From Hyphomicrobiales bacterium (lineage in GTDB: Bacteria > Pseudomonadota > Alphaproteobacteria > Rhizobiales > Rhizobiaceae), in assembly GCA_900473045.1 (NCBI GenBank), contig UCKS01000013.1, positions 62,001-126,000 of the forward strand: 64,000 nucleotides of DNA, given 5' to 3'. The position numbers and the translations under genes are program-made. Below the pieces are notes generated by a model. That model made no database searches. It had not been told where the DNA came from and worked only from the letters and a program-made list of their open reading frames with translations. Of this stretch, positions 39,710-62,606 are shown piece after piece. How positions within the stretch are numbered: position 1 is the first letter of the stretch; every line of letters starts with the position of its first letter.

Positions 39710-41026
39710 ATGGGTGAATTCATCATCAAGATGCCGGATGTCGGCGAAGGCGTGGCGGAAGCCGAACTGGTCGAATGGCATTGCAAGGTCGGCGACCCCG
39801 TCCGCGAAGACATGGTGCTTGCCGCCGTCATGACCGACAAGGCGACGGTCGAAATCCCATCGCCGGTCACTGGCACGGTTCTCTGGCTTGGTGCCGAGAT
39901 CGGCGATACCGTGGCCGTCAAGGCGCCGCTGGTGCGCATTCAGGTCGCGGGCGAGGACGGCGAGGCGGATGCGGTTCCGATGGCGGAAACGGTGACGGCC
40001 GCTTTCTCTTCTCCCCAGCGGGCGGAAGGTGCCCGAAGGGCGGATGACGGGGAGACTTCGCCCTCTCTTGGTCAGCCATCCCCCTCATCCGGTCCTGCGG
40101 GCCACCTTCTCCCCGCTGGGGAGAAGGGAAGGCGTACCGCACCCGACATGCTCTCCAAGCCACTGGCATCGCCTGCCGTCCGTCTCCGAGCACAGGATGG
40201 CGGTATCGATCTGCGTCAGGTGACGGGCACCGGTCCGGCCGGTCGCATCACCCATGACGATCTCGATCAGTTCCTGGCCCGTGGTGCGCAACCGCAACCG
40301 GCGCCGGCCGGCCTTGCCCGCAAAACCGCCGTCGAGGAGATCAAGGTCACCGGCCTGCGCCGCCGCATCTCGGAAAAAATGGTGCTGGCGACCTCGCGCA
40401 TTCCCCATATCACCTACGTCGAGGAAATCGACGTCACCGATCTGGAAGACCTGCGCGCGACCATGAATGCGGGCCGCAAGCCGGACCAGACCAAGCTAAC
40501 GATCCTGCCGTTCCTGATGCGGGCCATGGTGAAGACGATCGATGAACAGCCCGTCGTCAACGCCACCTTCGACGACGACGCCGGCATCATCAGCCGCCAC
40601 GCAGCGGTGCATATCGGCATCGCCACCCAGACACCGGCGGGCCTCACCGTTCCGGTGGTGCGCCATGCGGAAGCACGCGGAATCTGGGATTGTGCGGCGG
40701 AAGTGGTCCGGCTGGCGGAAGCCGCGCGCACGGGCTCCGCACTGCGTGAAGAGCTCTCCGGCTCGACCATCACCATTACCTCGCTCGGTGCGATGGGCGG
40801 CATCGTCACGACGCCGATCATCAACCACCCGGAAGTGGCGATCGTCGGCGTCAACAAGATCATGACCCGGCCGGTCTGGGACGGCAACCAGTTCATTCCG
40901 CGCAAGATGATGAACCTGTCGTCCAGCTTCGATCACCGGGTGGTAGACGGTTGGGACGCGGCGACCTTCGTCCAGCGGATCAAGGCGCTGCTTGAAACCC
41001 CCGCGCTGATTTTCATTGAAAGCTGA
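39710..41026 (+). CDS. bkdB: Branched-chain 2-oxoacid dehydrogenase E2, with a palindromic repeat in its linker
   Basis: Dihydrolipoyl acyltransferase core of 438 residues. Domains in order: lipoyl domain (residues 1-80, lipoyl lysine in [12 protein letters not shown]), linker, peripheral-subunit-binding domain ([19 protein letters not shown] through THDDLDQFL, about 150-187), and the acyltransferase core with [11 protein letters not shown], whose His and Asp are catalytic. Residues about 100-139 of the linker are encoded by a 119-bp inverted-repeat element (40008-40126) read straight through in frame. Total length stays close to the usual 420-430, so the repeat seems to have replaced, or extended modestly, an unstructured linker. 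Confidence 0.94.
40008..40126. repeat. RIME-like palindromic repeat inside bkdB
   Basis: Left arm 40008-40053 and right arm 40079-40126 are imperfect inverted repeats of about 46-48 bases: 15 identical bases at the outer end (CTTCTCCCCAGCGGG), then AAGGTG, CCCG, CGGATGA and GGGGA in matching order. The right arm also holds a self-complementary core, CTTCTCCCC-GCT-GGGGAGAAG (40106-40126). The same core with loop ATT occurs between nrdE and nrdF. The structure resembles the rhizobial intergenic RIME family, but here it is inside a gene and is translated. Confidence 0.85.
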
Positions 41027-51436: not shown

Positions 51437-51708
51437 GGTGACCTTCTCGAAACGGAATTCCCGGCCGGGCGGCAATGCGCGTGTGCCGGATGGAAAGGTG
51501 GAAGCGGCGATGCCGTGCCTGTGCGGCAGCACTGCCGGGCCAGCCGGGTGCTTTGACGCTCACAGGCAATCTGCCGATCGCTTAATGATGGGTGGAATGT
51601 TCCGTTTGGAAGGAAACGGCGAAAGGACGCCGGATGCGGCGGTCGAAATCAGACATGGTGGCTCCTGTTCCGGGCATCCCCGCCCGGGAAGTTGGATGTT
51701 GCTTTCGA
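51437..51708 (-). other. Leader between the riboswitch and the binding-protein gene
   Basis: About 270 bases with no gene. It is expected to hold the expression platform of the upstream aptamer. I could not pick out one clear terminator with a uridine tract, so control may act on the ribosome site. Confidence 0.5.
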
Positions 51709-51918
51709 CGGCAGGTCTCCTGGCTCACAGATATCTGCCGGTCGCCTGCCTTCCCGCAAACCCGGAGGGCTCGCAGTGGCGTGGCGCTTTCAAAAGCGCC
51801 GGGTGGCGATCGGCAATCCGCTTACAGTTGCGGGGGCAGCCACGGTCTTGGTCCCTGTTGGGTCTTCCGCACCGTGTTCCCTATTAATCCCCTCGAAGTC
51901 ATCCATCGGGGAACCGTC
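51709..51918 (-). ncRNA. Cobalamin riboswitch upstream of the ABC importer operon
   Basis: Read on the minus strand, the leader holds the landmarks of the adenosylcobalamin aptamer in order: an opening GGTTCCCC stem strand, AATAGGGAACACGGTGCGGAA, the B12 box GCTGCCCCCGCAACTGTAAG (51840-51821), GCCACTG, GGGAAGGC, and the closing CCAGGAGACCTGCC (to 51709). Cobalamin binding would switch off translation or transcription of the importer behind it. The 5' end lies about where transcription from the putative promoter would begin. Confidence 0.93.
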
Positions 51919-51925
51919 GAGGTCA

Positions 51926-51954
51926 CTTAGTCCGAGCATGGCGGTGTCGTCAAG
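51926..51954 (-). promoter_or_regulatory. Candidate promoter for the riboswitch-importer leader
   Basis: On the minus strand CTTGAC (51954-51949) is followed after 17 bases by ACTAAG (51931-51926). The -35 is a perfect rhizobial consensus, the -10 is weak. The predicted start, near 51918, coincides with the 5' end of the aptamer. Confidence 0.45.
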
Positions 51955-58152: not shown

Positions 58153-59142
<990 letters not shown>

Positions 59143-59168: not shown

Positions 59169-59271
59169 CCCCCTCACCCTGCCCTCTCCCCAAGTGGAGA
59201 GGGGGACCTCGCGCTCGCCGCACGTCTCTTCTCCCCATTGGGGAGAAGGTGCCGGCAGGCGGATGAGGGGG
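59169..59271. repeat. RIME-like palindromic repeat between nrdE and nrdF
   Basis: About 103 bp with an outer inverted repeat (CCCCTCACCC at 59170-59179 against GGCGGATGAGGGG at 59259-59271) and two inner hairpins, CCCTCTCCCCAAGTGGAGAGGG and the core CTTCTCCCC-ATT-GGGGAGAAG (59228-59248). The core matches the copy inside bkdB. Its position between two co-expressed genes could affect mRNA processing or the NrdE:NrdF ratio. Confidence 0.85.
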
Positions 59272-59310: not shown

Positions 59311-61464
59311 TCACAGACTACACGACACGCAGCCCTGCACTTCCGTGCCGGACAGCGCCATCTGGCGAAGGCGGATGTAGTAGATCGTCTTGATGCCCTT
59401 CTTCCAGGCATAGATCTGCGCCTTGTTGATATCTCGCGTCGTTGCCGTATCGCGGAAGAACAGGGTCAGCGACAGGCCCTGATCGACATGCTGGGTTGCT
59501 GCCGCATAGGTGTCGATGATCTTGTCAGGCCCGATCTCGTAGGCATCCTGGTAATAATCGAGATTGTCATTGGTCATGAACGGCGCCGGATAATAGACGC
59601 GGCCGATCTTGCCTTCCTTGCGGATCTCGATCTTCGAGACGATCGGATGAATCGAGGAGGTCGAATGGTTGATGTAGGAGATCGAGCCTGTCGGCGGCAC
59701 GGCCTGGAGGTTCTGGTTGTAGAGCCCTGTCGCCATGACGTCCTTCTTCAGGGCCAGCCAGTCTTCCTGCGTCGGGATGTGAATGCCGGCGGTCTCGAAC
59801 AGTTCGAGCACCCGTGCCGTCGCTGGCACCCATTCCTGTTCGGTATATTTGTCGAAATAGTCGCCAGACGCATATTTCGAGTTCTCAAAACCCTTGAAGC
59901 TCGATCCGCGCTCGACCGCGATCCGGTTCGATGCGCGGATGGCATGGTAGGTTACCGTGTAGAAGTATATATTGGTGAAATCGACGCCTTCGTTAGAGCC
60001 GTAATAGATGCGCTCGCGGGCGAGATAGCCGTGCAGGTTCATCTGGCCAAGGCCGATGGCGTGGCTGTCGTCATTGCCCTTCTCGATCGATGGGACCGAC
60101 GAAATATGGCTCATGTCCGAGACGGCCGTCAGCGCCCGGATCGACGTTTCGATGGTCTTGCCGAAATCGGATGAGTCCATCGCGGCGGCAATGTTCAGCG
60201 AGCCGAGATTGCAGGAAATGTCCTTGCCCATATGCTTGTAGGAGAGATCGTCGTTGTACTCGCTGGCTTCGCTCACCTGCAGGATTTCCGAGCAGAGATT
60301 GCTCATGGTGATGCGGCCGGCGATCGGGTTGGCCCGGTTCACCGTGTCCTCGAACATGATGTAGGGATAACCGCTCTCGAACTGGATTTCGGCGAGCACC
60401 TGAAAGAACTCGCGCGCCTTGATCTTCTTCTTGGAAATGCGGGCATCATCCGCCATCTCGCGGTACTTTTCCGTCACCGAGATTTCGGTGAATGGCACGC
60501 CGTAGACGCGCTCGACGTCATAGGGCGAGAACAGGTACATGTCCTCGTTGTTCTTCGCCAGTTCGAAGGTGATATCCGGAACGACGACGCCGAGCGACAG
60601 CGTCTTGATGCGGATCTTCTCGTCGGCATTCTCGCGCTTGGTATCGAGGAAACGCATGATGTCGGGGTGATGCGCGTTCAGATAGACAGCCCCTGCCCCC
60701 TGGCGGGCGCCCAGCTGGTTGGCATAGGAGAATGAGTCTTCCAGAAGCTTCATGACCGGAATGATGCCGGACGACTGGTTTTCGATCTGCTTGATCGGTG
60801 CGCCGGCCTCGCGGATATTGGTGAGAGACAGGGCCACGCCGCCGCCGCGCTTCGACAGTTGCAGCGCCGAATTGATGCCGCGGGCAATACTCTCCATATT
60901 GTCTTCGACACGCAAGAGGAAGCAGGAGACAAGCTCGCCGCGCTGCTTCTTGCCGGCATTGAGAAACGTCGGCGTCGCCGGCTGGAAGCGGCCGGAAATG
61001 ATCTCGTCAACCATATCGCGGGCCGTCGCTTCGTTGCCTTGGGCGAGCGCCAGCGCCACCATGCAGATACGGTCTTCATAGCGTTCGAGATAGCGCTTTC
61101 CGTCGAAGGTCTTCAGCGTGTAGCTGGTGTAATATTTGAAGGCGCCGAGGAAGGTCGGGAAACGGAATTTCTTCGCATAGGCGTGATCGTAGAGGTCCCG
61201 CACGAAGTTGAACGAATACTGGTCGAGAACCTCGCGCTCGTAATAGCCCTCGGTCACCAGATAATCGAGCTTCTCCCGCAGATTATGGAAGAACACGGTG
61301 TTCTGGTTGACGTGCTGCAGGAAGTACTGCTTCGCGGCCAGCCTGTCCTTGTCCAGCTGGATCTTCCCCTCGTCGTCATAGAGGTTCAGCATCGCGTTCA
61401 GCGCGTGATAATCAATCGCCTGTTCCGTGACCTTCAGAGGGCGTTCGAGCGTTGAGACGTCCAA
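59311..61464 (-). CDS. nrdE: Class Ib ribonucleotide reductase alpha subunit NrdE
   Basis: Catalytic subunit, 717 residues, reducing ribonucleoside diphosphates to deoxy forms. Active-site cysteines are in NLCSEILQ and [10 protein letters not shown], and the C-terminal shuttle pair in GCVSCSL receives electrons from NrdH. The start is set at a TTG (61464), giving [15 protein letters not shown] as in rhizobial homologues; it overlaps the nrdI end by 31 bases. A longer upstream frame is a shadow of nrdI. No N-terminal ATP-cone is apparent, consistent with class Ib. Confidence 0.95.
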
Positions 61465-61850
61465 AATCGTTCCAATCCATTGATAACATTGGCGACGTCC
61501 TCGTCCGTACCCAGAAGCTCGAACCTGTAGAGGTACGGCACTTGGCATTTATCCGAGATGACATTGCCCGCGAGACCAAACGTCTCGCCGAAATTGCTGT
61601 TGCCGGCGGCGATCACGCCCCGGATGAGGGATCGGTTGTCCGCATTGTTGAGAAAGCGGATCACCTGCTTGGGAACAGCGCCCCGGCCGTCATCGCCGCA
61701 ATAGGTCGGCAGGATGAGGACGAAAGGCTCGCGCACATCGGGCGTTTCCGCGCCTTGGCTGACGGGAATGCGGGCCGACTTCAAACCGAGCTTGGCGACG
61801 AAGCGATGGGTGTTTTCCGACAGGCTGGAATAGTAGACGATCAGTCCCAT
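61434..61850 (-). CDS. nrdI: Flavodoxin-like NrdI
   Basis: FMN protein of 138 residues that supplies the oxidant for the manganese cofactor of NrdF. The FMN-binding start is [13 protein letters not shown] and the second loop [14 protein letters not shown]. Its length and the position between nrdH and nrdE are standard. It starts 28 bases after the nrdH stop and overlaps nrdE. Confidence 0.94.
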
Positions 61851-62100: not shown

Positions 62101-62378
62101 GATGGTCCTCGTGATCTGTGATGTTGCTGGCAAACGAAAGGCTCCGAGCCGCTGCACGCGGATCCGATCGCGGGTCTTGTATTGCTGAGCTTGCGAGGGG
62201 TTAGGCCTGCGCCGCCGATCGCGATCCCGCAATGTTTGGTCTGCGAATTCGATTGACTGACATGCCTTCACCCCGAAGCCTTTTGGCGGACATAGGAAGA
62301 ACGCAATCCAAAGCGGAGTCATTCCGCTCATCATCACGCGACCTTCCAGGCACCCCGCCTGTGGACGTTTTGTTTAAG
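62101..62378 (-). other. Leader between the riboswitch and nrdH
   Basis: About 278 bases with no convincing gene. AGCGGA (62312-62317) and TCCGCT (62323-62328) can form a 6-bp stem followed on the minus strand by only a few T residues, a weak candidate for the expression platform. Confidence 0.45.
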
Positions 62379-62566
62379 GCAGGTCTCCTGGCTTGCGGGT
62401 CGTGGCGCCCATTCCGCCTTCCCGAAGCATCATGCTTCAGTGACTTGAAATGAAACAGACGCTCGCCGCTTACAGTTGCGGGGGCAGCTCCGGTTTTGCC
62501 CGGCCAGAAAGGCCAAGCGCACCGTATTCCCTCTTAGCCTCCGCACCTTGCGATTCGGAGGAACCT
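62379..62566 (-). ncRNA. Cobalamin riboswitch upstream of nrdHIEF
   Basis: On the minus strand the aptamer reads GGTTCCTCCG, then GAGGGAATACGGTGCG, the B12 box GCTGCCCCCGCAACTGTAAG (62488-62469), CAGTCACTGAAG-type GTCACTGAAGC, GGGAAGGC and CCAGGAGACCTGCC (to 62379). These are the landmarks of the adenosylcobalamin class, in the right order. It would lower expression of the B12-independent reductase when cobalamin is present, which implies a B12-dependent class II reductase elsewhere in the genome. Confidence 0.93.
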
Positions 62567-62576
62567 TGAACACTAG

Positions 62577-62606
62577 ATATAGTATACGACAGGAAAATAG
62601 CGTCAA
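62577..62606 (-). promoter_or_regulatory. Candidate promoter for the nrd riboswitch leader
   Basis: Minus-strand TTGACG (62606-62601) and CTATAT (62582-62577) are 18 bases apart. Both match the rhizobial housekeeping elements, and the start would fall near 62570, at the aptamer 5' end. Confidence 0.45.

Follow-up and report, generated by a model that had tools for sequence, protein, structure and literature searches.

An in-frame palindromic repeat of a dispersed rhizobial family in the E2 linker encoded by bkdB

Palindromic repeats within bacterial genes

The Rhizobium-specific intergenic mosaic elements (RIMEs), reportedly described by Osteras in 1995, are palindromic and are built as a mosaic of arms. 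In the passages of two papers that concern them they are treated as intergenic (PMC2573895; PMC2245857). The repeat described here is likewise rhizobial, dispersed and palindromic with mosaic arms, and we call it RIME-like by description. Unlike the RIMEs, copies of it lie inside genes and in frame; this holds for the copy in bkdB and for several of its relatives.

For Rickettsia, the relevant part of PMC2229807 (citing Ogata 2000 and Abergel 2006) describes dispersed palindromes of 105–146 bp (RPE) which are inserted in frame in conserved protein genes and are tolerated there. Compared by description, the bkdB-type element shares these properties: it is a dispersed palindromic repeat of the ∼100–150 bp class, found in frame in conserved genes, and for bkdB, SpoU, TilS and MnhA the in-frame insertion is accompanied by empty orthologues. 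On the other hand, the hosts here are free-living soil bacteria from another order of the Alphaproteobacteria, the encoded peptide is rich in P, S, G and E, and in one case the element is reversed at the same site. By analogy, the bkdB-type elements appear to work like the protein-inserted palindromes of Rickettsia, a likeness of kind.

Other repeats have also been found within reading frames. According to the section on them in PMC3733652, small GTAG- or CGTC-tagged REP palindromes lie wholly within ORFs in several bacteria, and two Xanthomonas carry different REPs at about the same recB site. REPs are units of 20–40 bp that occur singly or in groups and bear a GTAG or CGTC tag, whereas the unit here measures 119 bp. 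The part of PMC2229807 dealing with Correia and RU elements reports that an open-frame Correia variant of 107 bp is found fused in genes, that the 155-bp variant containing stops is almost only intergenic, and that the RU-1/ERIC element of 127 bp also occurs as in-frame fusions. The Correia and RU/ERIC hosts are unrelated to ours, and in our case it is the build with two like arms whose frame is open. Among the titles of the best-matching open-licence papers we found no report of RIME-type rhizobial elements translated inside proteins, which is weak evidence of absence.

The palindrome in the bkdB gene

The window, that is the whole stretch of 64,000 nucleotides analysed, belongs to a genome of 6.78 Mb in 125 contigs (G000). 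Its bkdB reading frame runs from the ATG at 39710 to the stop codon ending at 41026, and the product shares 91–93% identity with its counterparts in Pararhizobium polonicum, Rhizobium sp. Root1334 and their kin. The operon order E1alpha–E1beta–E2–E3 is alike in one P. qamdonense plasmid and two Shinella plasmids, as annotated. The features are:

39710..41026, plus strand: bkdB, lipoyl-carrying E2 subunit of the branched-chain 2-oxoacid dehydrogenase, 438 aa (ORF; Pfam Biotin_lipoyl, E3_binding and 2-oxoacid_dh; operon order)
39725..39940, plus strand: lipoyl domain, residues 6–77 (Pfam PF00364)
40008..40126, plus strand: 119-bp palindromic element, in frame, coding S(S)...(G) (sequence, fold)
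40008..40053, plus strand: left arm of the element, paired with the right arm (predicted fold)
40054..40078, plus strand: loop region between the arms with a predicted inner helix of three pairs (predicted fold; a 27-nt loop in the inversion comparison)
40079..40126, plus strand: right arm of the element, holding the 21-base core at 40103–40123 (predicted fold, core search)
40160..40264, plus strand: E3/E1-binding domain, residues 151–185 (Pfam PF02817)
40331..41014, plus strand: acyltransferase catalytic domain, residues 208–435 (Pfam PF00198)
59231..59251, minus strand: related 21-base core with 2 mismatches between putative ribonucleotide reductase genes (core search, ORFs read)

The region 40004–40132 is predicted to fold into a single hairpin of −92.8 kcal/mol (z −8.22), and none of 200 dinucleotide shuffles was equally stable. 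Control folds of a stretch from a neighbouring gene and of three linkers from non-carriers gave z values between −0.32 and +1.11. With up to 3 mismatches allowed, the 21-base core occurs at three sites in the window, where 0.00 are expected. Two of them are the two ends of the bkdB element, one with 2 mismatches. The third (59231–59251, minus strand, 2 mismatches) lies between the ORFs 58153–59127 and 59311–61548, which we read as putative nrdF and nrdE, and is built otherwise, by eye as two smaller hairpins. The element itself, a palindrome with few imperfections, codes for about 40 residues between the lipoyl and the E3-binding domain and is free of stops. A sequence-only reading of this DNA had placed a 119-bp palindrome at exactly these coordinates, had it translated as some 40 linker residues with neither frameshift nor stop, and had its core recurring between nrdE and nrdF; all three statements hold, with the reservation that the reductase genes are putative and the copy between them is organized differently.

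In the relatives' alignment E2 linkers naturally vary in length and are P/A-rich, and the 40 residues could accordingly be taken as an ordinary linker whose palindromic DNA reflects chance or Pro/Ala/Gly codon bias. Against this stand the z value of −8.2 relative to dinucleotide shuffles, the three non-carrier linkers without a hairpin, and the recurrence of the same sequence across genomes, in and out of genes. We have rejected this explanation on these grounds and regard it as exceedingly improbable.

No Rfam family matched the element above the gathering score. Within the window, Rfam matches were limited to two cobalamin riboswitches at other places (51693–51933 and 62361–62583, minus strand). 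The AlphaFold2 model of E2 is poor (mean pLDDT 48.5) and gives nothing reliable on disorder.

The element is not a general property of E2. Among 80 named relatives, kept from 215 found, 10 carry the element peptide (L094–L097, L105–L108, L112 and L144), 69 were judged by eye over residues 91–190 to be without any repeat peptide, and one has an unrelated repeat. Thus, the alignment proposed with the sequence-only reading finds these residues in only part of the E2 homologues. In the window's genus bkdB is present in 23 of 26 genomes, and the element in 11 of these 23 genes. The other 12 do not have it; the genus non-carriers show a conserved A/P/K-rich linker, and the three that were folded form no hairpin. 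One further observation concerns G015, where bkdB (G015:C3:322013-323282) is split across two frames, probably by sequencing errors, in a genome that is 78% complete.

On the operon tree carriers are interspersed with non-carriers; the carrier labels of this tree included L164, wrongly, where the pattern matched EGEKP, and L162, which has the other repeat, and L144 is absent. In six segment trees with 15 Pararhizobium-type rows, 3–5 changes of carrier state are needed. As carriers and non-carriers alternate on the trees, two linker alleles coexist, and these could have arisen via exchange between strains, via loss or via repeated insertion. The linker did not stand out as a site of recombination in either sliding identities or segment trees. 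On a tree of the elements themselves 11 of 13 bkdB copies group together, weakly (84/66), and the bkdB copies of Root1212 and of genome G003 fall among genomic copies. Given this weak grouping and the placement of these two copies, more than one insertion into bkdB may have occurred.

Judging from sequence alone, the element appears to be translated as part of E2. In 16 carriers compared it measures 113, 119, 137, 155, 161 or 173 bp, always 2 modulo 3, and the length changes from carrier to carrier preserve the frame at both ends. Among seven carriers (L094 excluded for its deletion) dN/dS is 0.84 in the element, whereas the lipoyl part gives 0.04 and the remainder 0.06, as would be found for a tolerated spacer evolving almost freely at the protein level. 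Silent divergence is lower in the element (pS 0.20) than in the flanks (0.33 and 0.375). This is unlike a plain neutral spacer and could reflect constraint on structure, a recent spread or gene conversion.

The lower silent divergence is one argument for the view that the hairpin persists because it has a role at the RNA or DNA level in the bkd operon, for example in pausing, processing or stability of the mRNA or in tuning subunit ratios, with the peptide as a by-product. A strong hairpin is indeed predicted in all 13 carriers folded (z −4.99 to −9.70 in 12 of them, −8.22 in the window; three Shinella carriers were left out of this set), and the covariation score of 0.072 was reached by just 38 of 500 shuffles. 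An RNA function based on covariation is nevertheless not established: other measures were reached by 60–136 of the 500 shuffles, with the observed number of double-changed pairs at 136, and 88.6% of the arm-pair cells are paired compared with 87.9% in shuffles, leaving 11.4% unpaired. These values are close to those of the shuffles, which related sequences can surpass without any structure. In addition, palindromes remain paired for a while through descent or arm conversion alone, and the 12 of 23 bkdB genes of the genus without the element speak against such a role. We consider it unlikely.

In our judgement it is very probable that the bkdB element is a non-autonomous, dispersed, RIME-like palindrome of the Rhizobiaceae that inserted in frame in the E2 linker and survives as a flexible neutral spacer. 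It is an additional dispersed sequence missing from most of the homologues examined, its frame is kept in 16 carriers, and its relatives stand in frame in conserved genes with empty orthologues. Such an insertion could keep the frame because 119 bp plus a few end bases in an open phase would be added, and owing to palindromy the peptide would hardly change in kind with orientation. This peptide (SPQRGEG...), a short and hydrophilic one with much P, S, G and E, would behave as a flexible linker. In bkdB the element would have displaced most of the older A/P/K-rich linker and would act as a neutral spacer permitting the lipoyl domain to swing. We infer that length and open phase, a peptide independent of orientation and a linker-like composition together account for its survival.

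A dispersed family and its copies in other genes

Related repeats are abundant in the window's genome, where we kept 58 sites. By eye, about half of them show another left arm and many others a different build, and in a pattern search with up to 2 substitutions per arm only the bkdB copy has this pair of arms. Likewise, the bkdB copy is the only match in this genome to the Root1212 element at E <= 1e-18 among the 33 of 88 candidates scored. The expectation of further genomic copies is thus borne out for the wider family; the copies at hand are built differently, and the bkdB copy stands alone with its arms. The 119-bp build itself occurs at E <= 1e-18 in at least 13 of the 26 genomes of the genus, with at least 26 matches in G011, at least 9 in G003 and at least 5 each in G002 and G010; since no more than 33 candidates per genome were scored, these family counts are lower bounds. 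A profile search of 247 genomes of the family, with 30 candidates scored in most genomes shown, gave matches in at least 13, and most of those outside the genus lie in short ORFs.

The bkdB DNA of G011 is the same as that of Rhizobium sp. Root1212. For 29 copies of this genome the flanks were fetched (54 matches listed, 40 of 145 candidates scored), and at 14 of them the GC content by codon position is that expected of coding sequence on either side. Nine of the 29 are full-length copies in frame within genes, and two partial copies are likewise in frame. Three further copies (L234, L246, L248) were flagged and dropped, having fewer than 30 codons on one side; L231, L235 and L229 were unflagged by the composition test and are uncounted. 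The nine hosts encode E2, an HpcH/HpaI aldolase, a SpoU methylase, an Mrp/Nuo-type antiporter subunit, a MurJ-like flippase, MnhA, a DUF2339 protein, a metallophosphoesterase and TilS. The hosts of the partial copies (L244, L254) are, by Pfam, a Glu/Gln tRNA-synthetase-like gene and a gene for polysaccharide synthesis; of two overlapping ORFs that the composition test picked out at L244, we took the one with the tRNA-synthetase match. In the antiporter subunit and the metallophosphoesterase the Pfam match covers only the part before the element. Beyond the cases checked against orthologues, the in-gene calls rest on base composition and Pfam.

The orthologues show the sites without the element. 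SpoU has 66 extra residues in G011 and is empty in all 24 comparable genomes (the truncated G015 gene excluded), MnhA has a net 37 extra residues and is empty in 25 of 25, and the DUF2339 site, a variable loop, is empty in 24 of 24 comparable genomes. The TilS insertion is shared by G011 and G002, with a short remnant in G003, and 21 of 24 genomes are empty. For the MurJ-like gene no orthologue was found in the genus at E <= 1e-60. Elsewhere in the genus, G012 carries a shorter copy inside CobN. Together with the dispersed family, the empty homologues support the earlier proposal that an intergenic-type rhizobial repeat has become coding sequence; the suggested parallel to Rickettsia gains from a close relative in which the same 119-bp type stands in frame in several conserved genes, those checked having empty orthologues.

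The window's genome likely holds two further in-gene cases, judged from their sequences. A class IV aminotransferase (L024:1424-1547; G000:C85, ∼164 kb) has an extra stretch of ∼67 residues containing a repeat of the common two-arm build; aligned with PDB 3qqm, residues 57–135 of the query stand against 53–64 of the chain. A LysR-type protein (L020:1218-2606; G000:C47, ∼218 kb) has two HTH matches, apparently with a repeat-derived stretch between them. A LysR protein with a double HTH is unusual in itself. L027 and other long ORFs of this genome without Pfam support were not counted as genes. A caspase-domain protein of G011 (L211:257-1945) may have an N-terminus encoded by an element in frame +2, ∼11 codons ahead; its start codon is uncertain.

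An unrelated palindrome has also reached the E2 linker. In Pseudaminobacter arsenicus (L162:2280-2460) this linker contains another dispersed palindrome (z −7.7) with SPSPLWGGVRGGG in its peptide; parts of this palindrome match at least 99 places in at least 7 plasmid records. The E2 linkers thus appear as recurrent landing places, and insertion tolerance explains this most simply. A search of plasmids with the element DNA concerned 241 records: among the 60 listed, four have an annotated gene under the best match, which is E2 in every case, and 55 have no listed gene under the best match in a gene table that is incomplete. The element peptide gave no tblastn match to the plasmids at E <= 1e-3; as the DNA search did find the E2 genes, the short peptide query is too weak.

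One could also argue that the insertion is adaptive, with the new linker altering E2 assembly or the reach of the lipoyl domain and the Pseudaminobacter palindrome being convergent for the same reason. This would agree with the presence of palindromic elements at this linker in Pararhizobium, in Shinella and, as an unrelated repeat, in Pseudaminobacter, and with E2 being the sole kind of annotated gene under best matches in the 60 plasmid records listed. However, dN/dS in the element is 0.84, 12 of 23 bkdB genes of the genus do without it, and tolerance alone accounts for the recurrence in the linker. We regard an adaptive origin as quite improbable, and keep to the neutral spacer.

Orientation and reading frame of the inserted copies

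The nine in-gene copies of G011 are read in frame +2 seven times and in frame −2 twice, and never in frame +0, although this frame is open in all nine. For MnhA (L238) the composition test also accepted a second ORF, overlapping and in frame +0; it was set aside, as Pfam and the orthologues back the MnhA frame. In a hand-made consensus none of the other four frames gives as hydrophilic a peptide as +2 and −2 (GRAVY −1.14 and −0.96), and these two also have the highest content of P, E, S, G, Q, K and A (77% and 72%); the +0 peptide has a net charge of +7. Palindromy would thus supply nearly the same kind of peptide either way round, and only the linker-like one would survive. All nine copies are exactly 119 bp long; among the other full-length copies, ambiguous ones included, 7 of 13 are 2 modulo 3, and by simple arithmetic the chance of finding nine of nine in this class is ∼0.02. 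The frame bias is probably due to a filter after insertion rather than to targeting.

In one bkdB gene the element stands reversed. In G013 it lies at the same place, and its interior of 75 nt aligns with that of the other carriers when reverse-complemented. The inverted score is higher in all 13 comparisons computed, L094 dropping out because it did not fit the pattern, and for the loop the inverted fit beats shuffles at p <= 0.014 in 14 of 14 comparisons; forward, the fit reaches p 0.03 for L096 and p >= 0.1 for the other 13. The element tree places the G013 copy with the other bkdB copies, weakly. Because the loop is common to G011 copies elsewhere, a separate reversed insertion at the same site could also account for G013. 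On the basis of the shared junctions we favour a flip in place.

In Shinella the arms themselves differ. An in-frame insert of ∼36 nt stands in the left arm in L206 and L107 (shorter in L107), and L112 has the same insert reverse-complemented in the right arm (37 of 40 bases compared with L206) with the loop unturned. This pattern points to an exchange of arms. Taking these cases together, we propose tentatively, as a reading about which we are somewhat more doubtful than confident, that a palindrome family of the Rhizobiaceae invades proteins and yields one benign linker-like peptide either way round, that it enters housekeeping genes in bursts, as in the Root1212 lineage, and that flips and arm exchange within genes keep the frame.

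In-frame palindromic insertions are best known from the intracellular Rickettsia and from the short REPs. A soil lineage with many such insertions, empty congeners and coexisting alleles is a natural system for studying the effects of selfish DNA on proteins. Repeat maskers and gene callers may mishandle such stretches. The same system could show whether selection picks the reading frame and whether selfish DNA supplies new linkers.
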